A stretch of 32,851 bases of DNA, from positions 1 to 32,851 of IMG/VR virus record IMGVR_UViG_3300006071_000054; one strand, written 5' to 3'. Of this stretch, positions 1-31,710 are shown piece by piece; the stretch's first letter is position 1; each line of letters begins with the position of its first letter. The DNA comes from a virus. Made by a program: the position numbers and the translations under genes. The notes under the pieces were generated by a model that was not told where the DNA came from, ran no database searches, and worked only from the letters and a program-made list of their open reading frames with translations.

Positions 1-119
1 GTCAAATAAAAGTAACAGATCTTTTGTATGTTCCTGATCTACAGAATTTCAATGTTGCTGTAAAAACTGATCCAGCAAAGTTAGAAGCGTATATAAATAA
101 AGTTTGCCGAGGTCGTTGA
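1..119 (+). CDS. C-terminal fragment of an unidentified protein (5' end outside window)
   Basis: A reading frame open from the left edge (first whole codon at base 3) runs to TGA at 117-119 and encodes 38 residues beginning QIKVTDLLYVP and ending NKVCRGR. The composition looks like real protein, but the fragment is too short to assign to a family. Its last codons contain a TATAAATA late-promoter motif (92-99) and probably overlap the 5' end of the tmRNA acceptor piece by about 15 bases. It could be a genuine gene end or chance openness; the upstream sequence would decide. Confidence 0.5.
   Translation, partial: QIKVTDLLYVPDLQNFNVAVKTDPAKLEAYINKVCRGR
92..99 (+). promoter_or_regulatory. T4-type late promoter (TATAAATA) for the tmRNA
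   Basis: An exact match to the T4 late-promoter box lies at 92-99. In T4 the box covers about -13 to -6, so transcription should start near 105-106. That is where the tmRNA acceptor piece, as judged from its pairing, begins. The phage also encodes gp33, the late co-activator, so the motif is likely functional. It lies inside the last codons of the truncated upstream frame. Confidence 0.65.
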
Positions 120-172
120 GAGGAATAGAATAAGCATGCAGGACTCGGGGGCAGTACCCGACTGGTCCACCA

Positions 173-234
173 TAAGAACATTCGCATAAAACCGATCCGG
201 GATACGGAAACAGGCAAACCGAGTGTTCTTAATT
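173..234 (+). other. intervening segment between tmRNA acceptor and coding pieces
   Basis: This 62-base stretch separates the acceptor CCA (170-172) from the first base of the coding piece (235). Its ends are complementary over 8 bp (TAAGAACA at 173-180 with TGTTCTTA at 224-231). The acceptor stem would therefore continue as a long hairpin in the precursor, interrupted only by ACCA opposite ATT. This is the shape expected for a precursor cut by RNase P before 235 and trimmed after the CCA, leaving two RNA pieces. No reading frame is evident in it. Confidence 0.8.
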
Positions 235-297
235 GGGCCAGAAATAGAATCGACTGGTGTAGTAAAGGTTCAAGGAGACCAAAGGCGAATGTTAGGT

Positions 298-339
298 GCC
301 AACGATAATGCACCATTTGAGTTCGCTGTAGCAGCGTAA
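298..339 (+). other. tmRNA tag reading frame (ANDNAPFEFAVAA-stop)
   Basis: Starting at the resume codon GCC (298-300), the frame reads Ala-Asn-Asp-Asn-Ala-Pro-Phe-Glu-Phe-Ala-Val-Ala-Ala and ends at TAA (337-339). With the alanine carried on the tRNA-like end, the tag added to stalled proteins would be AANDNAPFEFAVAA. The ANDN start and AVAA end match alphaproteobacterial SsrA tags, whose hydrophobic C-terminus is recognised by ClpXP. The central APFE segment looks phage-specific, though I cannot compare it with a host copy. Confidence 0.93.
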
Positions 340-399
340 TTCATTGGGTGGGCCACCAGCCTCGAAACAGAAATGGTGGCAATTATAAAGGAAAGCAAA

Positions 400-1338: not shown

Positions 1339-1415
1339 GGTTCCGTAGCTCAACAGGATAGAGCAACTGCCTTCTAAGCAGTAGGTTGGATGTTCGAGTC
1401 ATCCCGGGATCGCCA
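1339..1415 (+). tRNA. tRNA-Arg (anticodon UCU)
   Basis: A full cloverleaf can be drawn. The acceptor stem pairs GGTTCCG with CGGGATC (two wobbles). The D-stem is GCTC/GAGC, and the anticodon stem ACTGC/GCAGT closes the loop CTTCTAA, with anticodon TCT at 1373-1375. The T-stem is GGATG/CATCC with loop TTCGAGT. The CCA end is encoded (1413-1415). It reads AGA codons, which dominate arginine usage in the phage genes around it and are usually scarce in GC-rich alphaproteobacteria, so it likely supplements the host. It lies between two protein genes, 20 bases after the preceding stop. Confidence 0.95.
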
Positions 1416-2408: not shown

Positions 2409-2597
2409 ATGAAAAATTCGTCTTCCTACTCTTATTCTCATGCATATGCTGTTAGATGGGCTCTTGAAATCGAACTAAGCAGATTAAGGATTTTTGAGGA
2501 TAGGCAGGAGATGTTTAGAGTGATAAATTATTTTGAAGAGCGAATAGCTGAATTGAAGGAAGAAGAAGCATTATGTTTAAAGGCTCAAGTTTCGTAG
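2409..2597 (+). CDS. small hypothetical protein (62 aa)
   Basis: A short frame starting at ATG 2409, three bases after the L,D-transpeptidase stop, with the serine/tyrosine-rich start MKNSSSYSYSHAYAV followed by a charged helix predicted to be amphipathic (residues 16-58). No known motif. Its 3' end overlaps the gp33 frame by 25 bases, and its GGAAGAAG codons provide the ribosome-binding site for gp33, so the two are likely translationally coupled. Confidence 0.7.
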   Translation: MKNSSSYSYSHAYAVRWALEIELSRLRIFEDRQEMFRVINYFEERIAELKEEEALCLKAQVS

Positions 2598-2791
2598 AAG
2601 AGGTAGAAAAGCTCTGTCGGACTAAGAACATCGAGTATATCGATGCAGTGGTCTTCTGGTGTGAAAAGAATAATCTGGAAATTGAGACAGCCGCCTACTG
2701 GATCAAAAAAGACCCTGTTATGAGGTCTAAGATTCAGTTCGAGGCAGAGAATCTCAATGTCCTAAAACGAGGTGCTCGTCTGCCGGTATAA
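2573..2791 (+). CDS. 33: gp33-like late-transcription co-activator (72 aa)
   Basis: T4 gp33 bridges the host RNA polymerase beta-flap to the sliding clamp and permits activated transcription from TATAAATA late promoters. The helical core here (VEEVEKLCRTKNIEYIDAVV, then EIETAAYWIKK, then the EAENLNVLKR end) follows the T4 gp33 pattern of a helix with YxxA followed by an xxExxA helix and a short C-terminal xNLL-like tail. It is shorter than T4 gp33 (112 aa), lacking the N-terminal extension, as seen in gp33 of marine relatives. The position beside gp59 and gp32 matches T4. The stop codon lies within the next late promoter (TATAAATA 2787-2794). Confidence 0.75.
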   Translation: MFKGSSFVEEVEKLCRTKNIEYIDAVVFWCEKNNLEIETAAYWIKKDPVMRSKIQFEAENLNVLKRGARLPV

Positions 2792-2823: not shown

Positions 2824-3300
2824 ATGCTCATACAGACTGTTGGTAAACCGAACCATATATCTTTAAAGATGGCCAAAGAGGCCACGAGGTTCTACGCAGA
2901 ATATCTTATGCCAAAGATATACGATAAAGTGTTCGTTACTTTGGAGTTTAAGAAGTTTCAAAGAGGAAATAATGATTATGCCTACTGCGATGCTATTGAC
3001 GATGGCGAGCAACGTAAGAGAGATTTTGTCATAACATTGGATGCTCGTCTTAATAAGAAAGAGACCCTATTGGCTCTTGCGCATGAGATGGTGCATGTGA
3101 AGCAATATGCCAAAGGGGAGTTAAAGGATCTATTTCGCCCAACCAGAATGGTTCGATGGCAGGGAGAAAGATTTGATCCTGAGGATATGGATTATTGGGA
3201 ATTGCCTTATGAGATCGAGGCGTATGGCCGTGAAAAAGGTCTATATGTGAAGTTTATGACACATTTGGATGAAAAGATAAATGGGTATATCAGCGTTTGA
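2824..3300 (+). CDS. SprT-like zinc metalloprotease (158 aa)
   Basis: The HExxH zinc-protease motif is plain: His87-Glu88-Met-Val-His91 (LAHEMVHVKQY). A conserved downstream LPYEIEAY segment (residues 127-134) probably supplies the third ligand. SprT/Spartan proteins cut DNA-bound or cross-linked proteins; phage versions occur in many T4-like genomes, but their role is not known. I place the start at ATG 2824 because GGAGG lies 6 bases upstream and because a transcript from the 2787 promoter could not translate from the in-frame ATG at 2797. The gene overlaps gp59 by 20 bases, which suggests coupling to replication or repair. Confidence 0.82.
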   Translation: MLIQTVGKPNHISLKMAKEATRFYAEYLMPKIYDKVFVTLEFKKFQRGNNDYAYCDAIDDGEQRKRDFVITLDARLNKKETLLALAHEMVHVKQYAKGELKDLFRPTRMVRWQGERFDPEDMDYWELPYEIEAYGREKGLYVKFMTHLDEKINGYISV

Positions 3301-3868
3301 TGCTTATAGAGAATATGTGGCACTGAAGAACCACTTTACAAAACCTAATTATGACTATATAAAGTATAACGGAAAAACAGGTCTAAAGGTTGACTCTTTT
3401 AATAAGAGGAAAGACAAGCTGTTTTTCGAGAAACTAGCTAAGAAGGATAACGTCCATGAGTTTCTTGTTGCTAACCTTTCTGGTAACCCTAAGTTATGGA
3501 TACGCGATCTCGCGTACTCCGAAACTGCAGAGAATACCTATCAGAGTTGGAAAAAGAAGACACAATCGCTAACATATAATTTTAAGAACGAGGTTGAAGA
3601 GCATCTATATAAGCCCTTCAACTTCAACTTTGTTGTTAAACCAGGCGAGCACCCATTATTGATGAAAGCCTATCTAGCAGGTAGACTGTCTTTTGAGACA
3701 TTTTGTATTATGTTAGAACTCACTAAATCAATTGCCTCATGGGACTCTAAGATGGAGTATGATCCTATTTGGCAGGATCTATCTAATAAAGTTAAGAAAT
3801 ATACCCCTTTCATAAAATATGATAAAGACAAGTTCAGAAAGATAGTGATTGATTTATACGGTGATTGA
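3281..3868 (+). CDS. 59: gp59-like loader of the replicative helicase (195 aa)
   Basis: T4 gp59 binds forked DNA covered by gp32 and loads the gp41 helicase. The N-terminal part matches the family closely: AYREYVALKNHF, then YDYIKYNGKTGLKVDSFNKR, then KDKLFFEKLAKK (about residues 8-55). The rest is all-helical with SFETFCIMLEL (residues 136-146) resembling T4 ISFETFILLD. The length compares with 217 aa in T4. It starts inside the end of the SprT-like gene and ends in a TGATG overlap with the next gene. The separation of gp59 from gp32 by two oxygenase genes is an insertion relative to the T4 order. Confidence 0.88.
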   Translation: MGISAFDAYREYVALKNHFTKPNYDYIKYNGKTGLKVDSFNKRKDKLFFEKLAKKDNVHEFLVANLSGNPKLWIRDLAYSETAENTYQSWKKKTQSLTYNFKNEVEEHLYKPFNFNFVVKPGEHPLLMKAYLAGRLSFETFCIMLELTKSIASWDSKMEYDPIWQDLSNKVKKYTPFIKYDKDKFRKIVIDLYGD

Positions 3869-4386
3869 TGTTTAAAGTTATGCCTATTAAAGAGCATTAT
3901 GAGATCAAGGATCAACTCCTTGAGATTATAGAAAGACAGAATACAACCCCCACAAAATTCGAGAGAGAACAGGTATCCAGAACTGACTGGCACGTTGACC
4001 GTGCACAGATAAGAGAATATTTTAAATTTATATTTCCTATAGTATATCCTTACATGCATCAACTAATGGAGGATGCATTTAACAAGGATGAAAAGATTTA
4101 TGACATCGATCATATTAAGATCAGTAGTTATAGAATGAACCGATATGAAAAGAGTGATTATCATGGCTGGCATAGGCATCCAAACTCATCTTGGCATTTC
4201 ATTTATTATGTCGAGTTACCTGAAGGAGCTCCTGGTACTGAGATACAAATTCCTTTCACGAACGAGCGTGTTAGACCAGATGTAAAAGAGGGCGATCTAT
4301 TAATGAGTCCTTCATGTTTTCTTCATAGAGGACCACCTAATGACTCTAAAGGCAGAAAAACAATTATCGTTATGAATACTAATTAA
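3868..4386 (+). CDS. 2OG/Fe(II) oxygenase-like protein, first copy of a tandem pair (172 aa)
   Basis: The core motif WHRHPNSSWHFIYYVELP (residues 101-118) followed by a DVKEGDLLMSPS strand and a distal His153 plus Arg163 fits the double-stranded beta-helix oxygenases found in many phages. Likely metal ligands are His102 or His104 and His153, and Arg163 would hold 2-oxoglutarate. The substrate is unknown. ATG 3868 overlaps the gp59 stop as TGATG, so translation is probably coupled. The gene directly downstream is a diverged duplicate with the same layout. Together they lie between the helicase loader and gp32, hinting at expression with replication genes, though not necessarily a replication role. 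Confidence 0.75.
   Translation: MFKVMPIKEHYEIKDQLLEIIERQNTTPTKFEREQVSRTDWHVDRAQIREYFKFIFPIVYPYMHQLMEDAFNKDEKIYDIDHIKISSYRMNRYEKSDYHGWHRHPNSSWHFIYYVELPEGAPGTEIQIPFTNERVRPDVKEGDLLMSPSCFLHRGPPNDSKGRKTIIVMNTN
4167..4199 (+). repeat. 33-bp perfect direct repeat, copy 1 (second copy 4726-4758)
   Basis: The bases beginning CTGGCATAGG and ending TTGGCATTT at 4167-4199 recur exactly at 4726-4758. Each copy encodes the metal-binding WHRHPNSSWHF motif of the two oxygenase genes. Flanking sequence differs, so this stretch is much better conserved than its surroundings. Confidence 0.9.
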
Positions 4387-4423
4387 ATTTTGCTTGACTT
4401 TTGGTTTGCTTAGAGGTAATATA

Positions 4424-4945
4424 ATGAAAGAGTTGATAAAGTCAGTTTCTATTAAAGAACATGATAGCATAAAGCAAGAACTGTTAGAAGTTTTAGCAAG
4501 GCAGAATTCGTCTCCTTATTGGATTAATGATGGATGGTATGTTCATAATACGGACTGGTTAGTTGATGCAGGTAAACCAAGAGAATATTGTAAATTCTTA
4601 TATCCTATATTAGCACCTTATATTCATAAAATGTTAATAGAGTCGTATGGGCCAGATTATGAAAACACTACATTTAAAATGATAAATTGTCATTTTAATC
4701 AATATCACAAAGGAGAGTATCATAACTGGCATAGGCATCCAAACTCATCTTGGCATTTTATCTATTATGTGGAGCTTCCAAAAGATTCTCCTCCAACAGA
4801 AATAAGAATTCCGCTAACACAAGAAATTGTTAGTCCGGATGTAAAAGAGGGAGATATGTTAATGGCTCCTTCTCTGTTTTTCCATAGAAGCAAACCTAAT
4901 GCTTCTGTAGAAAGAAAGACCGCCATCGTCTTTAACTTCAGTTGA
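4424..4945 (+). CDS. 2OG/Fe(II) oxygenase-like protein, second copy of a tandem pair (173 aa)
   Basis: A paralogue of the preceding gene with the same order of motifs: SIKEHDSIKQELLEVLARQN at the N-terminus, TDWLVDAGKPREYCKFLYPI, then WHRHPNSSWHFIYYVELP (residues 102-119), DVKEGDMLMAPS, and a distal His154 and Arg164. All putative active-site residues are kept, so both copies could be active with different substrates. I chose ATG 4424, preceded by AGAGG, over the TTG at 4394 because the N-terminus then aligns with the first copy. The gap to the first copy is 37 bases. Divergence outside the core suggests an old duplication. Confidence 0.75.
   Translation: MKELIKSVSIKEHDSIKQELLEVLARQNSSPYWINDGWYVHNTDWLVDAGKPREYCKFLYPILAPYIHKMLIESYGPDYENTTFKMINCHFNQYHKGEYHNWHRHPNSSWHFIYYVELPKDSPPTEIRIPLTQEIVSPDVKEGDMLMAPSLFFHRSKPNASVERKTAIVFNFS
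4726..4758 (+). repeat. 33-bp perfect direct repeat, copy 2 (first copy 4167-4199)
   Basis: Second copy of the repeat, in the same reading frame of the second oxygenase. Recombination between copies would fuse the two genes in frame into one. Confidence 0.9.
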
Positions 4946-5018: not shown

Positions 5019-5924
5019 ATGGTAGATTTTAAGGCTCTCAAAGCAGCTTCGGGTAAGAAGTCTCTCGAAACTCTCACTTCAGAACTCACTAAACTCAAGG
5101 ACAATGGTGCCTCTAAGAACGGTCCTGATGATCGTTTCTGGACAGCAACTGTAGATAAGGCAGGTAATGGTTATGCCGTTATTCGTTTTCTTCCTAGCCC
5201 TTCAGATGAGGATGTCCCATTCGTTAGAATGTTTGACCATGGTTTCCAAGGACCAGGTGGATGGTATATCGAAAACTCCCTAACAACTATCGGTAAGCAG
5301 GATCCAGTTTCAGAGTATAACTCAAAGCTGTGGAACTCTGGTATTGAAGCTAATAAGGATATCGTTCGTAAGCAGAAGCGTCGTCTTCACTTTGTTTCTA
5401 ATATCTATGTTGTTTCTGATCCAGGTAATCCAGCTAATGAAGGTAAAGTTTTCCTCTTCAAGTATGGTAAGAAAATTTTCGACAAGCTCGAGGAAGCAAT
5501 GAATCCTCAGTTTGCTGATGAAGAGGCAATTAACCCATTCGATCTTTGGTCGGGTGCTAATTTCAAGCTCAAGATTCGTCAGGTAGAAGGTTATCGTAAC
5601 TATGACAAGTCTGAGTTTGATAAGACTGGTCCTTTGCTTGATGATGATAAAGAGTTGGAGAAAGTTTGGAAGTCCGAGCATTCGTTGAAAGCGTTTCTTG
5701 AGCCTTCTAACTTCAAGAGCTATGAAGAGCTTCAGGCTCGTCTTACTAAGGTTCTTGGTGAACCTGCTGCTCAGAAACGTGCAGCTGCAAAGGTTGAAGA
5801 AGAAACTCCTTGGCAGGATGAAGATGCTGCTCCTAAGTTCAAAGCAACTCATGCACCTAATTATTCAGGTGATGATGATGACGATGAAGCTATGGATTAC
5901 TTTAAGAATCTCGCTGAGAAATAA
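5019..5924 (+). CDS. 32: gp32-like single-stranded DNA-binding protein (301 aa)
   Basis: gp32 coats single-stranded DNA during replication, recombination and repair. The length equals T4 gp32. The basic N-terminal arm is followed by the OB-fold core (YAVIRFLPSP, VPFVRMFDHGF, WYIEN, FVSNIYVVSDPGNPANEGKVFLFKYGKKIFDKL, FDLWSGANFKLKIRQVEGYRNYDKSEF), and the C-terminus is an acidic tail (DDDDDEAMDYF) for partner binding such as gp59. The whole protein has no cysteine, so the T4 zinc site (His64, Cys77, Cys87, Cys90) is absent; QDPVSEYN stands where T4 has the CPVC motif. Marine T4-like phages show similar variants. Expression is probably from its own late promoter plus read-through from upstream. 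Confidence 0.95.
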   Translation: MVDFKALKAASGKKSLETLTSELTKLKDNGASKNGPDDRFWTATVDKAGNGYAVIRFLPSPSDEDVPFVRMFDHGFQGPGGWYIENSLTTIGKQDPVSEYNSKLWNSGIEANKDIVRKQKRRLHFVSNIYVVSDPGNPANEGKVFLFKYGKKIFDKLEEAMNPQFADEEAINPFDLWSGANFKLKIRQVEGYRNYDKSEFDKTGPLLDDDKELEKVWKSEHSLKAFLEPSNFKSYEELQARLTKVLGEPAAQKRAAAKVEEETPWQDEDAAPKFKATHAPNYSGDDDDDEAMDYFKNLAEK

Positions 5925-25944: not shown

Positions 25945-28900
25945 ATGCCTTTAGATACAAATTTTGACGTTTCTCCGTTTTTTGATGATTACGATCCCCA
26001 GAAAAAGTATTACCGAATCCTATATAGACCATCGGTTGCTGTTCAGGCTCGTGAGCTAACACAGACTCAGACGATCATCCAAAATCAGATCGAGCGTTTT
26101 GCTGGAGGCGTTTATACAGACGGTTCACGTATTGATGGATGTAGCCCAACTATCATCCCAAATCTTCAATTTGTCCGTATTCAAGATAAATTTATTGGTA
26201 ATAACGATATTTTTATCAACGATATTCCTACTTCATATCTTCTGGTTGGTAATACTTCTGGTGTTCGTGCTACCATTGAGGTGGCTAAAGAAGGTTTATT
26301 TGTAAATTACCCAAATACCAATCGTTTCTATATAAAATATATTTCAACTGGTAATCAGGTTGGAAATGTAAATTATACCACTTTTGCTAATGGTGAGTAT
26401 ATTAACATATATAATGATTTTCAGGATAAATTTTCTGATCTCGATCCAACTAATATTGAATTTAAAACTCGTGTTATTACAACTAACAGTTCAATTCAGG
26501 CTGTAGGTAAAGGTTACGGATTCAAAATCGAAAACGGTATTATTTACCAAAAAGGTTATTTTCAGAATATTGATGAGCAAAAAATAGTAATCAGAGATTA
26601 CGATCAAAATGTTTCGAATACGTTAGTAGGTTTCGAGACAATAGAACAAATCGTAACTGAAAATCAAGATCCTTCTTTAAATGATAACGCTCTTGGTTAT
26701 CCTAACGAAAACGCTCCAGGAGCTTACCGTCTTAAATTAAATCCTGTTATTATTGCTCGCGAAAAACAAGATATTGCTAATAACGACGCATTCTTTGCTA
26801 TTTTTCAGTTCTCTAATATTACTGGCGAACTTATTATTGATAAAAGCACTGATCCTTATTCTGCTATTGGCGATTTCGTAGCTAAAAGAACATACGACGA
26901 AGCTGGCGATTTCGTTTCAAAGCCATTCCTTGTAGAAGCTGTTCAGAACGACGATCCTACTCTTATAACTTATCAGGTCTCTTCTGGTAAAGGTTATGTT
27001 CACGGATATCAAGTAGAATATACTTCTTCACGTGCCGTTGATGCTCCTAAAGCTACAACTACAAATTATGCTATAAATCAGATCATTACTGCTAATTATG
27101 GTAATTTCGTAAGAGTTCAAGAGTTTGCAGGAATTGTCCCATTAGTATCTTTACCAACAATTAATATCTATCGTAATCCTATTCAGGCTATTACTAATAA
27201 TTATCCTGGTTCAGTTTCTCCAGCATCTAATCCAGTTGTTGGTACAGCTAAAGTTAAATCTATTGTATATGATTCTGGCGTTCCAGGCACACCAACTTGC
27301 ACGTATAAATTATATTTGACTGATATTGAGATGTTATCAGGATATAGTTTTGCTGGTAATGCAAGAGGTTTTGGTCTTGACAATGGACCATATGGAGATT
27401 TCTGGGCAGATGCTGTTGTTGTTAACAACAAAACCATTCTTGATCAAACTGGAAAACTTTCTCTTGTATTGCCATATGGTAAGAAAGCTCTTAAAACTCT
27501 ATTTGTTAATGGGGATTATGATACTAGTTTCTATTTCAGAAACTCAGTAAAAGGTCAGCTATTATCTAATGGATTTATTTCCATAACGACAAGTAGTTCA
27601 CATCCAGGTGGTTACGACGTTATCGGTTACAGCCCTGGTGTTCTTGGAGATACTTTAGAGAATCAGTTCATTATTACTCTTGAAAATAATGTAGCTACTG
27701 ACAATTTCCCTGGCGTAACAGCAAACGTCTTTGTCAACAATAGCAACTATTACGCTAATATTTCTTCTGGACAGATTGCTAGTTATTTTTATCCAGGTGA
27801 ATTCATGTATATTGGTGGTGTTGGATATCGTGTTGAAAACATTGTAAATAATTCAACAGTCCAACTTGCTGGATCTCCTACAGTAACAGCATCAACTGCC
27901 TTTGGTAAATATTGGCCAGCTGGTTATTCTGTTCCTCTTGAGAATAATATCTCTGGTGGTGATAGATACGTAAACGTAACCAGCCCAACAACCCTTTCTG
28001 TTATTTCTGGTGTTGGTAATACTTCTGCACCTCTTACATCTTCTGCTAATGCTATCGTTCAGTTCAGAATGGAGCGTTATTCTGCACAGGCAGCAAAGAA
28101 AGATGTTATAAGAAATGTATATATTAAAATTAACACTGGAACTAATCCAGGTGGTATTAATGGACCTTGGAAACTTGGTATTCCTGACGTATTTGGTATT
28201 AATAATGTTTGGGCGGATGCTAACGATTATTCTACAGCAATAGCCAGCGATGTAACAAATTATTTTGAACTGGATACTGGCCAAAAAGACGAGTTTTATG
28301 ATTATTCACAACTCGTAATTAAACCACAGTTTGCTAATGCTCTTACAGGAACTCCTTATATTGTTGTTTCTGTTGACGTATTCAAAATTAATAGTTCTAC
28401 TGGTATTGGGTTCTTCTCCGTAGATTCTTATCCAACTAGCAATGTTTCTCCAACTCCTAATTCATATATTTCTTGGGCCGAAATTCCAATCTATAACTCT
28501 GGCGCTGTAAACTATGACCTAAGAGATTGTATTGATATTCGTGCTGTTAAATCCAACACAGCTAATTATGCTACAGATTTAGCAGCTGCTACTATCAATC
28601 CTCCAGATTCGTCTGCATTTGTTAGTGACTCTACTTCTTATCTAACAGAACCAGATACTAATATTACATCAAGTGTTGAATATTTCTTAGGTCGTATTGA
28701 TCTTATTACTATTGGTGCTTCTGGGTCTTTGTCCGTAGCACAAGGCGTTCCTTCCGAAAGACCAACAGTTCCTACTGTTGACGTCGACGCTATGTCTATT
28801 TGCACTGCTTATGTTGCACCATTCCCAACACTAAGTGCTGCTGAAGGAAATCTGTATGGAAGACCAGATTATGCAGTAAAGACTAAGATATCTTATAATC

Positions 28901-31710
28901 GTGTTTATACGATGAGAGATATTGGTGTTCTTGATCAGCGTATTCAGCGTCTTGAATACTATAATACTCTTAATCTTCTTGAACAGCAAGCTAAGACTTT
29001 GCAGGTTCCTGATTCTAATGGGTTGAATAGATTTAAGAATGGCTTCTTTGCCGATCCTATGAACTCGCATGCTTTTGGAGACGTTTCTAATATCGAATAT
29101 CGTTGGTCTATCGACTCAATGTTCGGTTATGGTCGTCCAATGTATTCTTCTGAGAATATAAATCTTGTATTTAATGGTAATCTATCAGCTGGTGTTGTTC
29201 AGACTGGTAGATATATTACTCTTCCTTACACTCATGAGTTGATTATTAATCAGCCATTTGCTACTAAGGTAAGAAATAACGCTCAGGATGCATGGGCATG
29301 GACTGGTGTTATGAACCTGTTCCCATCTTATGATATGAACAGAGACGAAACTATGCTTCCTGCTCAGGATGCTCGTATCGATCTTACTCAGCCATTTGCC
29401 GAGTTTGCTAATGCTGTTGCTCAGGCAACTGGTGCTACTGTGTTCGGTACTCGTTACGGCGACTGGAGAACTCTGTCTTCATCGACTGTAGAAACTCGTG
29501 TCAGAAACTATCCTATTGTTACGGTTACTGATACTACTACAAGTCAACAGGATAGAACTGTAACCAATACATTTACTGTTCCTATTACTCAAACATTTGA
29601 TATTGGTACTTACGTAACTGACGTTTCTATTCAGCCATATATGAAGTCAAGAACAATTGCTTTCGTTGCTGGTAATCTAAAACCAAATACACGTGTTTAT
29701 CCATTCTTTGACACAGTTGCTGTTGCGAATTATACTGCTCCAGGTGCTCTGAATACTGCTCTTGGTAATACTATACAGCAAATTGTTGCAACTGCTTCAA
29801 CTACTGGTAAACCAGATGCAGTTTGTAATCGTACTGGTAATTTTGGCGATCCTCTTATTACCGATAGTACTGGTACTCTTTATGGTGTATTCTTGGTTCC
29901 TGATGGACAGTTTAGAACTGGCGATAGAACTTTGCTCCTTATGGATCAGAACGATTATGTTACTGGTGCTAATGCTGCTATTACATCAGCTACTGCAGTA
30001 TTCACGGCTTCTAATATTTCTGTTACTAAAAGAGATTCGACTATTACTACTGTAACTCCTTCAGTTCGTAGTATTCAATCTGTTCAGGACAGAACTTTAG
30101 TAACTGCTTCGAGCTATTCATATATCGATCCTCTTGCTCAGTCGTTCAATCTTGATGCTCCACAAGAACAATCAGGTGTGTTCGTTACTAAGATTGATCT
30201 TTTCTTTAAGACTAAAGATAATAATTATGGTGTAACTGTTGTTCTTTCTGGTATGACTAACGGATTCCCAGACTCTAATAAAGTTTATGGTACTTCTTAT
30301 GTTGCTCCATCAAATATTAATTTGAGCGATGATGCTACTGCAGCTACTACTTTTGTGTTTGATCAACCTATATTTGTGAATGCTGGAGATCAGTATGCGT
30401 TTTATATCGAACCAGAGGCTAACTCTCCAGAATATTCAATGTGGATGTCTGAAATTGGTGGTACTGATGTTACAACTGGCGCTCAGGTTTATACTAACCC
30501 ATACGCTGGCGATGCTTTCCGTTCTTCTAACGCCAAGAGTTGGACAGTTCTAACAAGAGAAGATATTAAATTTAGTATCTATTGTGCTAACTTCGTTGTT
30601 GGTTCTGGTACTGCTGTGTTCGAAAACGAAAACGATGAGTGGATCAAATACGCTCAAGTTGTGCCTTTTGCTAGTGATAAAGTTCCACAGGTTGGGGATG
30701 AAATATTTGTATTGAATTCACCAACTGATATAACTATTCCAAATACTTCTATTACTGGTATTATTCAGTCAATTGATGAAGATAATACCACTTATAAATT
30801 GGATTCTTCTATCGGTGGATTCTTACCTAATACTACTCTTGGTGTCTTTAGATTACCACAGAATAGTAATTCATCGGCAGCAAATGCATCGACTCTGATT
30901 TCTACATTTACTCTTGATTCGTTTGTAAATCCAGTTCTTGATGCTATTGTGCCTTCATTTGCTACAATGCTTCCTGTTGGTGCTTCTATCAATCTATCAT
31001 ACGCTGGTACTGCAGCTCAATCTGGAGCTAAAGATCAGTCTTATATTGATCTTGATTTTGATATTGAGAAAGAAATGATTGATTATGAAAGAGCAGTATT
31101 CTCTAAATCTCTTGAAATGACTCTTGTTCGTACTAAATCTCTAACTGTTAATGCAGTATTCCAGAATACTAACAAGTATCTCTCTCCTGTTATTGATTTG
31201 ACTAAGAAACATGCTCTTGTTATCGAAAACAAAATTAATAATGATAATACAAATGAATATACTAGATATGGTTCTGCTATAGCTAAGTATGTAAGTCAAT
31301 CTGTTGTATTAGCAGACGGTCAAGATGCTGAAGATCTAAAAGTTTATATTACAGGATATAGACCTTATAATACTGATATTGAGATATACGTCAAGTTCCT
31401 TGCTAATGAAGATAGCGATTTATTCCAGAATAAAGTTTGGACAAAATTGGATAATGATGACATTCAGTTATATTGTAATCCTCTAAATACAACAGACTTC
31501 AAAGAATTTACATATAGTGTTCCAAAAACTCCTCCTGTATCACAGGCGGCATATATTAATCAAGATACTGGAGTTATTCAATATCTTGATGCTTCTGGAG
31601 CAGTATATGCTACATTCAAGACTTTTGCAATCAAAATAGTTCTATTGAGTCAAAGTAGAATTTATGTTCCTAAAATTGACGATCTTAGAGCTATAGCTTT
31701 ACAGGTATAA
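25945..31710 (+). CDS. very large virion structural protein with DUF4815-like N-terminus (1921 aa)
   Basis: The N-terminus DDYDPQKKYYRILYRPSVAVQARELTQTQTIIQNQIERFAGG (residues about 14-55) follows the DUF4815 pattern seen in tail proteins that attach to the baseplate. The body is beta-rich with many VNNS, GNTS and PSD-type turns and repeated strand units. A helical block, RVYTMRDIGVLDQRIQRLEYYNTLNLLEQQAKTL (residues about 985-1018), lies mid-protein and may be a trimeric coiled coil. The C-terminus ends in TFAIKIVLLSQSRIYVPKIDDLRAIALQV, a tail common to marine T4-like structural proteins. It is the largest gene in the window, probably a baseplate fibre or wedge extension. Receptor-binding function is possible but not shown. 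Confidence 0.75.
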   Translation: MPLDTNFDVSPFFDDYDPQKKYYRILYRPSVAVQARELTQTQTIIQNQIERFAGGVYTDGSRIDGCSPTIIPNLQFVRIQDKFIGNNDIFINDIPTSYLLVGNTSGVRATIEVAKEGLFVNYPNTNRFYIKYISTGNQVGNVNYTTFANGEYINIYNDFQDKFSDLDPTNIEFKTRVITTNSSIQAVGKGYGFKIENGIIYQKGYFQNIDEQKIVIRDYDQNVSNTLVGFETIEQIVTENQDPSLNDNALGYPNENAPGAYRLKLNPVIIAREKQDIANNDAFFAIFQFSNITGELIIDKSTDPYSAIGDFVAKRTYDEAGDFVSKPFLVEAVQNDDPTLITYQVSSGKGYVHGYQVEYTSSRAVDAPKATTTNYAINQIITANYGNFVRVQEFAGIVPLVSLPTINIYRNPIQAITNNYPGSVSPASNPVVGTAKVKSIVYDSGVPGTPTCTYKLYLTDIEMLSGYSFAGNARGFGLDNGPYGDFWADAVVVNNKTILDQTGKLSLVLPYGKKALKTLFVNGDYDTSFYFRNSVKGQLLSNGFISITTSSSHPGGYDVIGYSPGVLGDTLENQFIITLENNVATDNFPGVTANVFVNNSNYYANISSGQIASYFYPGEFMYIGGVGYRVENIVNNSTVQLAGSPTVTASTAFGKYWPAGYSVPLENNISGGDRYVNVTSPTTLSVISGVGNTSAPLTSSANAIVQFRMERYSAQAAKKDVIRNVYIKINTGTNPGGINGPWKLGIPDVFGINNVWADANDYSTAIASDVTNYFELDTGQKDEFYDYSQLVIKPQFANALTGTPYIVVSVDVFKINSSTGIGFFSVDSYPTSNVSPTPNSYISWAEIPIYNSGAVNYDLRDCIDIRAVKSNTANYATDLAAATINPPDSSAFVSDSTSYLTEPDTNITSSVEYFLGRIDLITIGASGSLSVAQGVPSERPTVPTVDVDAMSICTAYVAPFPTLSAAEGNLYGRPDYAVKTKISYNRVYTMRDIGVLDQRIQRLEYYNTLNLLEQQAKTLQVPDSNGLNRFKNGFFADPMNSHAFGDVSNIEYRWSIDSMFGYGRPMYSSENINLVFNGNLSAGVVQTGRYITLPYTHELIINQPFATKVRNNAQDAWAWTGVMNLFPSYDMNRDETMLPAQDARIDLTQPFAEFANAVAQATGATVFGTRYGDWRTLSSSTVETRVRNYPIVTVTDTTTSQQDRTVTNTFTVPITQTFDIGTYVTDVSIQPYMKSRTIAFVAGNLKPNTRVYPFFDTVAVANYTAPGALNTALGNTIQQIVATASTTGKPDAVCNRTGNFGDPLITDSTGTLYGVFLVPDGQFRTGDRTLLLMDQNDYVTGANAAITSATAVFTASNISVTKRDSTITTVTPSVRSIQSVQDRTLVTASSYSYIDPLAQSFNLDAPQEQSGVFVTKIDLFFKTKDNNYGVTVVLSGMTNGFPDSNKVYGTSYVAPSNINLSDDATAATTFVFDQPIFVNAGDQYAFYIEPEANSPEYSMWMSEIGGTDVTTGAQVYTNPYAGDAFRSSNAKSWTVLTREDIKFSIYCANFVVGSGTAVFENENDEWIKYAQVVPFASDKVPQVGDEIFVLNSPTDITIPNTSITGIIQSIDEDNTTYKLDSSIGGFLPNTTLGVFRLPQNSNSSAANASTLISTFTLDSFVNPVLDAIVPSFATMLPVGASINLSYAGTAAQSGAKDQSYIDLDFDIEKEMIDYERAVFSKSLEMTLVRTKSLTVNAVFQNTNKYLSPVIDLTKKHALVIENKINNDNTNEYTRYGSAIAKYVSQSVVLADGQDAEDLKVYITGYRPYNTDIEIYVKFLANEDSDLFQNKVWTKLDNDDIQLYCNPLNTTDFKEFTYSVPKTPPVSQAAYINQDTGVIQYLDASGAVYATFKTFAIKIVLLSQSRIYVPKIDDLRAIALQV

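Follow-up and report, generated by a model that had tools for sequence, protein, structure and literature searches.

A circularly permuted tmRNA gene without PK1 behind a predicted late promoter octamer in a T4-like phage contig

Introduction

What does a T4-like phage do with a circularly permuted, two-piece tmRNA, and is the product of such a gene a working molecule? The question is raised by a 32,851-base virus record from IMG/VR (hereafter the window, meaning the whole stretch of DNA that was analysed), which carries such a gene on the plus strand at positions 105–383. An initial annotation of this DNA held that permuted tmRNAs are scarcely known from phages, which is wrong. A two-piece tmRNA has been described in the T4-like OM43 phage Melnitz, and in 2022, 53 phage genomes with two-piece tmRNA were counted by ARAGORN, with marine or aquatic samples as the source of 50 (PMC9004378). 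Across all forms of the molecule, 79 unique bacteriophage tmRNA sequences have been reported (PMC11915505), and at least 120 stretches in IMG/VR match one strict permuted-tmRNA pattern. With the 53 published genomes and these stretches on record, the presence of a permuted tmRNA gene in a T4-like phage is no novelty. Surveys based on the ARAGORN build used here probably undercount viral permuted tmRNAs, since it detected 74 of 110. What the present sequence comparison adds to the initial annotation is the absence of PK1, the octamer TATAAATA at a fixed position before the gene, and a 12-bp stem predicted in the spacer.

The Carrier Contig and Its Relatives

Judged by its protein matches, the contig is T4-like, as had been proposed: gp32, gp33, gp59, baseplate wedge and hub, and tail tube were all recognized. 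The genes nearest to the tmRNA are the following.

1339–1415, plus strand: tRNA-Arg, anticodon TCT (ARAGORN, Rfam)
2573–2791, plus strand: gp33-like late-transcription coactivator (phrog_254, E 1e-14), 2.4 kb downstream of the tmRNA
3281–3868, plus strand: gp59-like helicase loader (phrog_269, E 1.3e-55)
5019–5924, plus strand: gp32 single-strand DNA binding protein (phrog_224, E 2.7e-114)

Contigs whose gp32 is 66–80% identical to that of the window carry the tmRNA at the same place, upstream of gp33–gp59–gp32, and this order is conserved in independent contigs. In most close relatives tRNA-Arg(TCT) is also the first RNA gene beyond the tmRNA. Of the 50 contigs found to have a related gp32, 27 contain a match to the covariance model RF04321 (tmRNA_permuted) that exceeds its cut-off; in one phage contig (G018:C1, 21160–21355 and 21814–21996), a match above the cut-off is accompanied 0.5 kb away by a weak one of 29 bits, perhaps a decayed copy. 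The search used tied 46 of the 110 viral loci to T4 core genes, most viral loci being fragments. A nucleotide search for near phage relatives with the first 25 kb of the window returned tRNA matches only, and the protein encoded at 548–1318 had no relatives in viral_contigs. Elsewhere in the window, a 2OG-Fe(II) oxygenase-like gene pair (3865–4386 and 4394–4945) lies between gp59 and gp32, and a protein of 1921 residues (25945–31710) matches, along most of its sequence, phrog_358, a family of unknown function.

Anatomy of the Permuted Gene

The identity of the RNA gene is carried by two covariance models (Rfam 15, gathering threshold). RF04321 matches 111–339 with 93.0 bits (E 5.7e-17, cut-off 47), and RF01849 (alpha_tmRNA) matches 123–271 with 79.2 bits (E 4.2e-20, cut-off 50), a partial match to model positions 70–183 of 355. 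Of the searches that the initial annotation had proposed, these bore out the two-piece permuted tmRNA, whereas ARAGORN missed the gene even when the sequence was padded and reported solely the tRNA-Arg(TCT) in the window. The parts of the gene are as follows.

105–172, plus strand: acceptor piece, with the 5' strand of H2, the T arm, the 3' acceptor strand and an encoded CCA; the exact 5' end is inferred
145–161, plus strand: T stem-loop, 145–149 with 157–161 around a 7-nt loop (150–156); 100% of alignment cells paired, two-sided changes in 3 of 5 pairs
162–172, plus strand: 3' acceptor strand (162–168) followed by ACCA (169–172)
173–234, plus strand: spacer, presumably lost in maturation, with a 12-bp stem (173–184 with 220–231) stacked on the acceptor stem (fold, pairing comparison)
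235–383, plus strand: coding piece, with the 5' acceptor strand (235–241), the 3' strand of H2, the tag frame and PK2; 3' end inferred
254–286, plus strand: 3' side of an extended H2, 254–259 with 135–141, 268–271 with 123–126, 277–280 with 111–114 and 284–286 with 106–108 (fold, covariation)
298–339, plus strand: tag reading frame from GCC to TAA, encoding ANDNAPFEFAVAA and a stop (direct reading, covariance models)
346–380, plus strand: H-type pseudoknot 3' of the stop, 346–349 with 359–362 and 352–358 with 374–380

Direct reading of positions 60–420 upheld the details of the initial annotation. The piece ends are exact, with the CCA end at 172 preceding the start of the coding piece at 235. 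All seven pairs of the acceptor stem form between 235–241 (GGGCCAG) and 162–168 (CTGGTCC), including the G3-U70 alanine identity pair (G237 with T166, U166 in the RNA), which is G-U in 12 of 12 relatives. The resume-to-stop frame is likewise as described, with the resume codon GCC at 298–300, the tag ANDNAPFEFAVAA at 298–336 and the stop TAA at 337–339. The tag ends in a degron-like VAA, the tail looked for in a permuted tmRNA. In the relatives the tag frame is intact, and the resume context is kept, with T at −5 and A at −4.

Absence of PK1 and an Extended H2

Between positions 280 and 298, where the alpha_tmRNA model would place PK1, the window has none. Its resume codon is offset by 63 nt from the start of the coding piece, compared with 80 nt or more in all 105 alphaproteobacterial tmRNAs in which a tag was found. 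This offset, across the 110 distinct permuted tmRNAs from viruses, is mostly at least 80 nt; it is 62–66 nt in 13, the window included, and 47–48 nt in five, which form the shortest viral class (L093, L109, L121, L132 and L144). A misaligned rather than absent PK1 was considered and rejected, because just 17 nt separate the H2 strand 277–280 from the resume codon. Part of this interval is instead taken up by an extension of H2: the three pairs 106–108/284–286 are compensated in relatives (GCC/GGC, GCU/AGC, GUC/GAC). The linker that is left between the end of H2 (286) and the resume codon is 11 nt, the same length as in E. coli tmRNA (residues 79–89, PMC4236655). The loss of PK1 in the clade of the window, together with a covarying H2 that is read as running almost to the resume codon, was not part of the initial annotation.

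Alphaproteobacteria are listed as having PK1 (PMC1168896). PK1 has been described as needed for tagging, yet a hairpin or single-stranded RNA can replace it in E. coli (PMC3968760, PMC4236655). No report of a natural PK1-less permuted tmRNA was found in the open-access library searched, and no short-spaced tmRNA was recognized in 385 alphaproteobacterial genomes. In that set, 28 genomes contained matches to a short-spacing pattern, where none of the 20 loci retrieved had an adjoining 5' acceptor strand and the remainder, by eye, were not tmRNA-like; a long-spacing pattern matched in 188, and most among the matches listed were plain tmRNAs. As the bacterial sets are pattern-found samples of Alphaproteobacteria, a host tmRNA that lacks PK1 could, if rare, have escaped notice.

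Fold and Covariation

With a folding energy of −91.6 kcal/mol (z −3.4), the predicted precursor lies below 200 of 200 shuffles, and its minimum-energy structure includes the acceptor, T, H2 and spacer stems. In an alignment of 12 relatives (A1), 87.4% of the cells are paired, and 26 of the 40 proposed pairs have two-sided changes. The covariation score is 0.512, as against 0.205 in shuffles; none of 500 shuffles scored as high, and the same holds for the cells paired. Two-sided changes occur in 94 cells compared with 35 in shuffles, and versions of the structure slid along the alignment were lower, none coming close.

The pseudoknot after the stop has a downstream stem of 6–9 bp in 12 of 12 relatives, although the sequences are almost entirely different. 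Its long stem was located sequence by sequence; the MAFFT alignment had given 50% paired cells there because it placed gaps inside the stem. The ends of the spacer pair over a mean of 11.0 bp in viral loci and 7.0 bp in bacterial ones, with 6.3 and 5.3 bp in mis-paired controls.

Origin and Nearest Known Systems

In a tree of 153 tmRNAs, the window groups with L133, L114 and L148 (97/91) and, one level further out, belongs to a clade of ten tmRNAs that all come from phages (99/98); the tree rests on a short alignment and leaves many forks open. PK1-less rows stand in at least two places, so PK1 may have been lost more than once.

The nearest named phages are the Melnitz strains, whose gp32 is 59% identical to that of the window. 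Melnitz (MZ577097) is also T4-like and has a permuted alpha-type tmRNA upstream of gp33, gp59 and gp32, with TATAAATA before the gene. Unlike the window, it keeps the PK1 spacing, its coding piece running for about 80 nt before the resume codon; a TTGACA box precedes TATAAATA by 17 nt, and the tmRNA gene is followed by a glutamine riboswitch. The alphaproteobacterial tmRNAs of RF04321 and RF01849 (e.g., Caulobacter) share with the window the order of the pieces, the tRNA-like domain, an ANDN tag start and the downstream pseudoknot; the window differs in lacking PK1, in its extended H2 and longer spacer stem, and in the predicted TATAAATA promoter. Rhodobacter phage RcXuper (OP186293), a phage of an alphaproteobacterium, has a permuted tmRNA as well (108 bits), whereas its genome is of 147 kb, it is absent among the gp32 relatives listed, and no TATAAATA was seen upstream. 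The RcXuper gene lies in an unannotated stretch (1469–1771 of locus L214, OP186293.1), and the Ruegeria phages vB_RpoS-V10 and DSS3P8, which share its T-arm/CCA sequence, probably carry a permuted tmRNA too. The tmRNA of mycobacteriophage DS6A, as cited in PMC11915505, is phage-borne and unusual in another way: it has no tag frame, while the window retains an intact tag frame and lacks PK1.

A Predicted Late Promoter

Upstream of the acceptor piece stands a candidate promoter element.

92–99, plus strand: predicted T4-type late promoter octamer TATAAATA (position and relatives; no TTGACA-like −35 box)

The transcription start predicted from it, at about 105, adjoins the acceptor piece. In 69 of 110 viral permuted tmRNA loci, TATAAATA occurs 55–105 nt before the CCA end, mostly at 70–81 nt, compared with a shuffle mean of 1.1 and a maximum of 5. 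At the same position it was found in one of 109 bacterial loci, of which only 12 are similarly AT-rich. The octamer also lies 10–60 nt before open reading frames in 63 of 136 cases in T4-like loci (permuted octamers: mean 11 of 131); this speaks for its being used as a late promoter in those loci. Within the window it occurs six times, with 5.7 expected by chance; since there is no excess, the late-promoter reading rests on position and relatives. Two close relatives (L011 and L022) have AATAAATA in place of TATAAATA. As for the late-promoter elements of the window itself, TATAAATA and gp33 are present, and gp55 and gp45 were not identified. An open frame that enters from the contig edge (3–119, no relative found) ends with TGA at 117–119; a gene upstream may therefore reach across the predicted promoter into the first nucleotides of the tmRNA. 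Hybrid promoters, in which TTGACA is followed after about 17 nt by TATAAATA and which thus combine sigma-70 and T4 late elements, stand before viral tmRNA genes at 55 loci and also at L212 (9151–9181). Taken with its fixed place, the octamer at 92–99 lends support to the suggestion in the initial annotation that the tmRNA acts late in infection.

Proposed Function and Alternatives

We consider it likely that the gene is a functional permuted tmRNA of a phage lineage, and the most likely reading of the sequence is a working, late-expressed and SmpB-dependent molecule. Host RNA polymerase, together with late factors of the phage, would transcribe the precursor late from TATAAATA. Maturation would then remove the spacer hairpin, with host RNase P cleaving before 235 and 3' trimming after the CCA at 172, and the two mature pieces would be held together by H2 pairing. 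With PK1 lost, H2 would run to 286 and leave the 11-nt linker before the resume codon. Once charged with alanine, the tmRNA would bind SmpB, which is taken to be that of the host because none was found in 29 related viral records. Late in infection it would rescue ribosomes stalled on broken mRNAs, and the fragments from these ribosomes would be tagged for host ClpXP.

The main rivals to a working, late-expressed tmRNA are plain sigma-70 expression and a decoy function. On the former account, which is doubtful without being far-fetched, TATAAATA at 92–99 is merely the −10 box of a host sigma-70 promoter and expression is early or constitutive. Such a reading can draw on the TTGACA-like box that lies 16–19 nt upstream in 55 of the 69 viral loci with TATAAATA, and on the early promoter described for Melnitz (PMC9004378), where the TTGACA box at sigma-70 spacing may explain why it was called early. 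It fits the window's own group poorly, as the −35 box is lacking at all ten loci, the window included, that have T4 core genes and no PK1, and accompanies only 4 of the 63 octamers before open reading frames in T4-like loci. A decoy, by which the phage tmRNA would sequester host SmpB, EF-Tu or alanyl-tRNA synthetase and so damp host trans-translation, as reported for DS6A, is unlikely. The loss of PK1 would suit it, and inhibition of the host tmRNA in E. coli by one form of phage tmRNA has been reported (PMC11915505); the relatives, however, keep the tag frame, the resume context and the degron-like end, which a pure decoy would not need.

It is more improbable still that the gene serves mainly to swap the host tag for a phage tag and thereby to change the fate of tagged proteins. 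Phage tags do vary widely and include long ones such as ANANFKPEAFTSIDMSMDSELLAA (L091), whereas ANDNAPFEFAVAA, the tag of the window, is much like the ordinary tags of Alphaproteobacteria. Tags of about 24 residues occur in L091, L095, L170, L194 and L200. Integration into host ssrA genes is common (PMC9004378, PMC11915505), which could suggest that the gene is left over from host DNA or from a prophage attachment site, or that the contig is chimeric. Such an origin is hardly credible and was rejected on synteny and covariation: the gene is complete and covarying, independent contigs show it in synteny with T4-like core genes, and it falls within a phage-only clade.

Implications

Whether the working, late-expressed tmRNA favoured here reflects a wider evolutionary pattern is evenly balanced in our judgement: T4-like phages may have evolved, perhaps repeatedly, a permuted tmRNA that lacks PK1 and is driven by a late promoter, a reduced and working form unseen in the sampled hosts, which would flood late infection with ribosome rescue. 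The fixed place that TATAAATA occupies ahead of phage tmRNA genes speaks for expression late in infection, whereas an early role has been proposed for Melnitz; the reason why phages carry tmRNA thereby becomes testable by infection time courses. PK1 is usually called required for tagging, and this phage lineage would be a natural test of what a tmRNA needs in order to work. A natural PK1-less lineage with an extended H2 would mark how far the reduction of a tmRNA can go, and it offers a ready test molecule.
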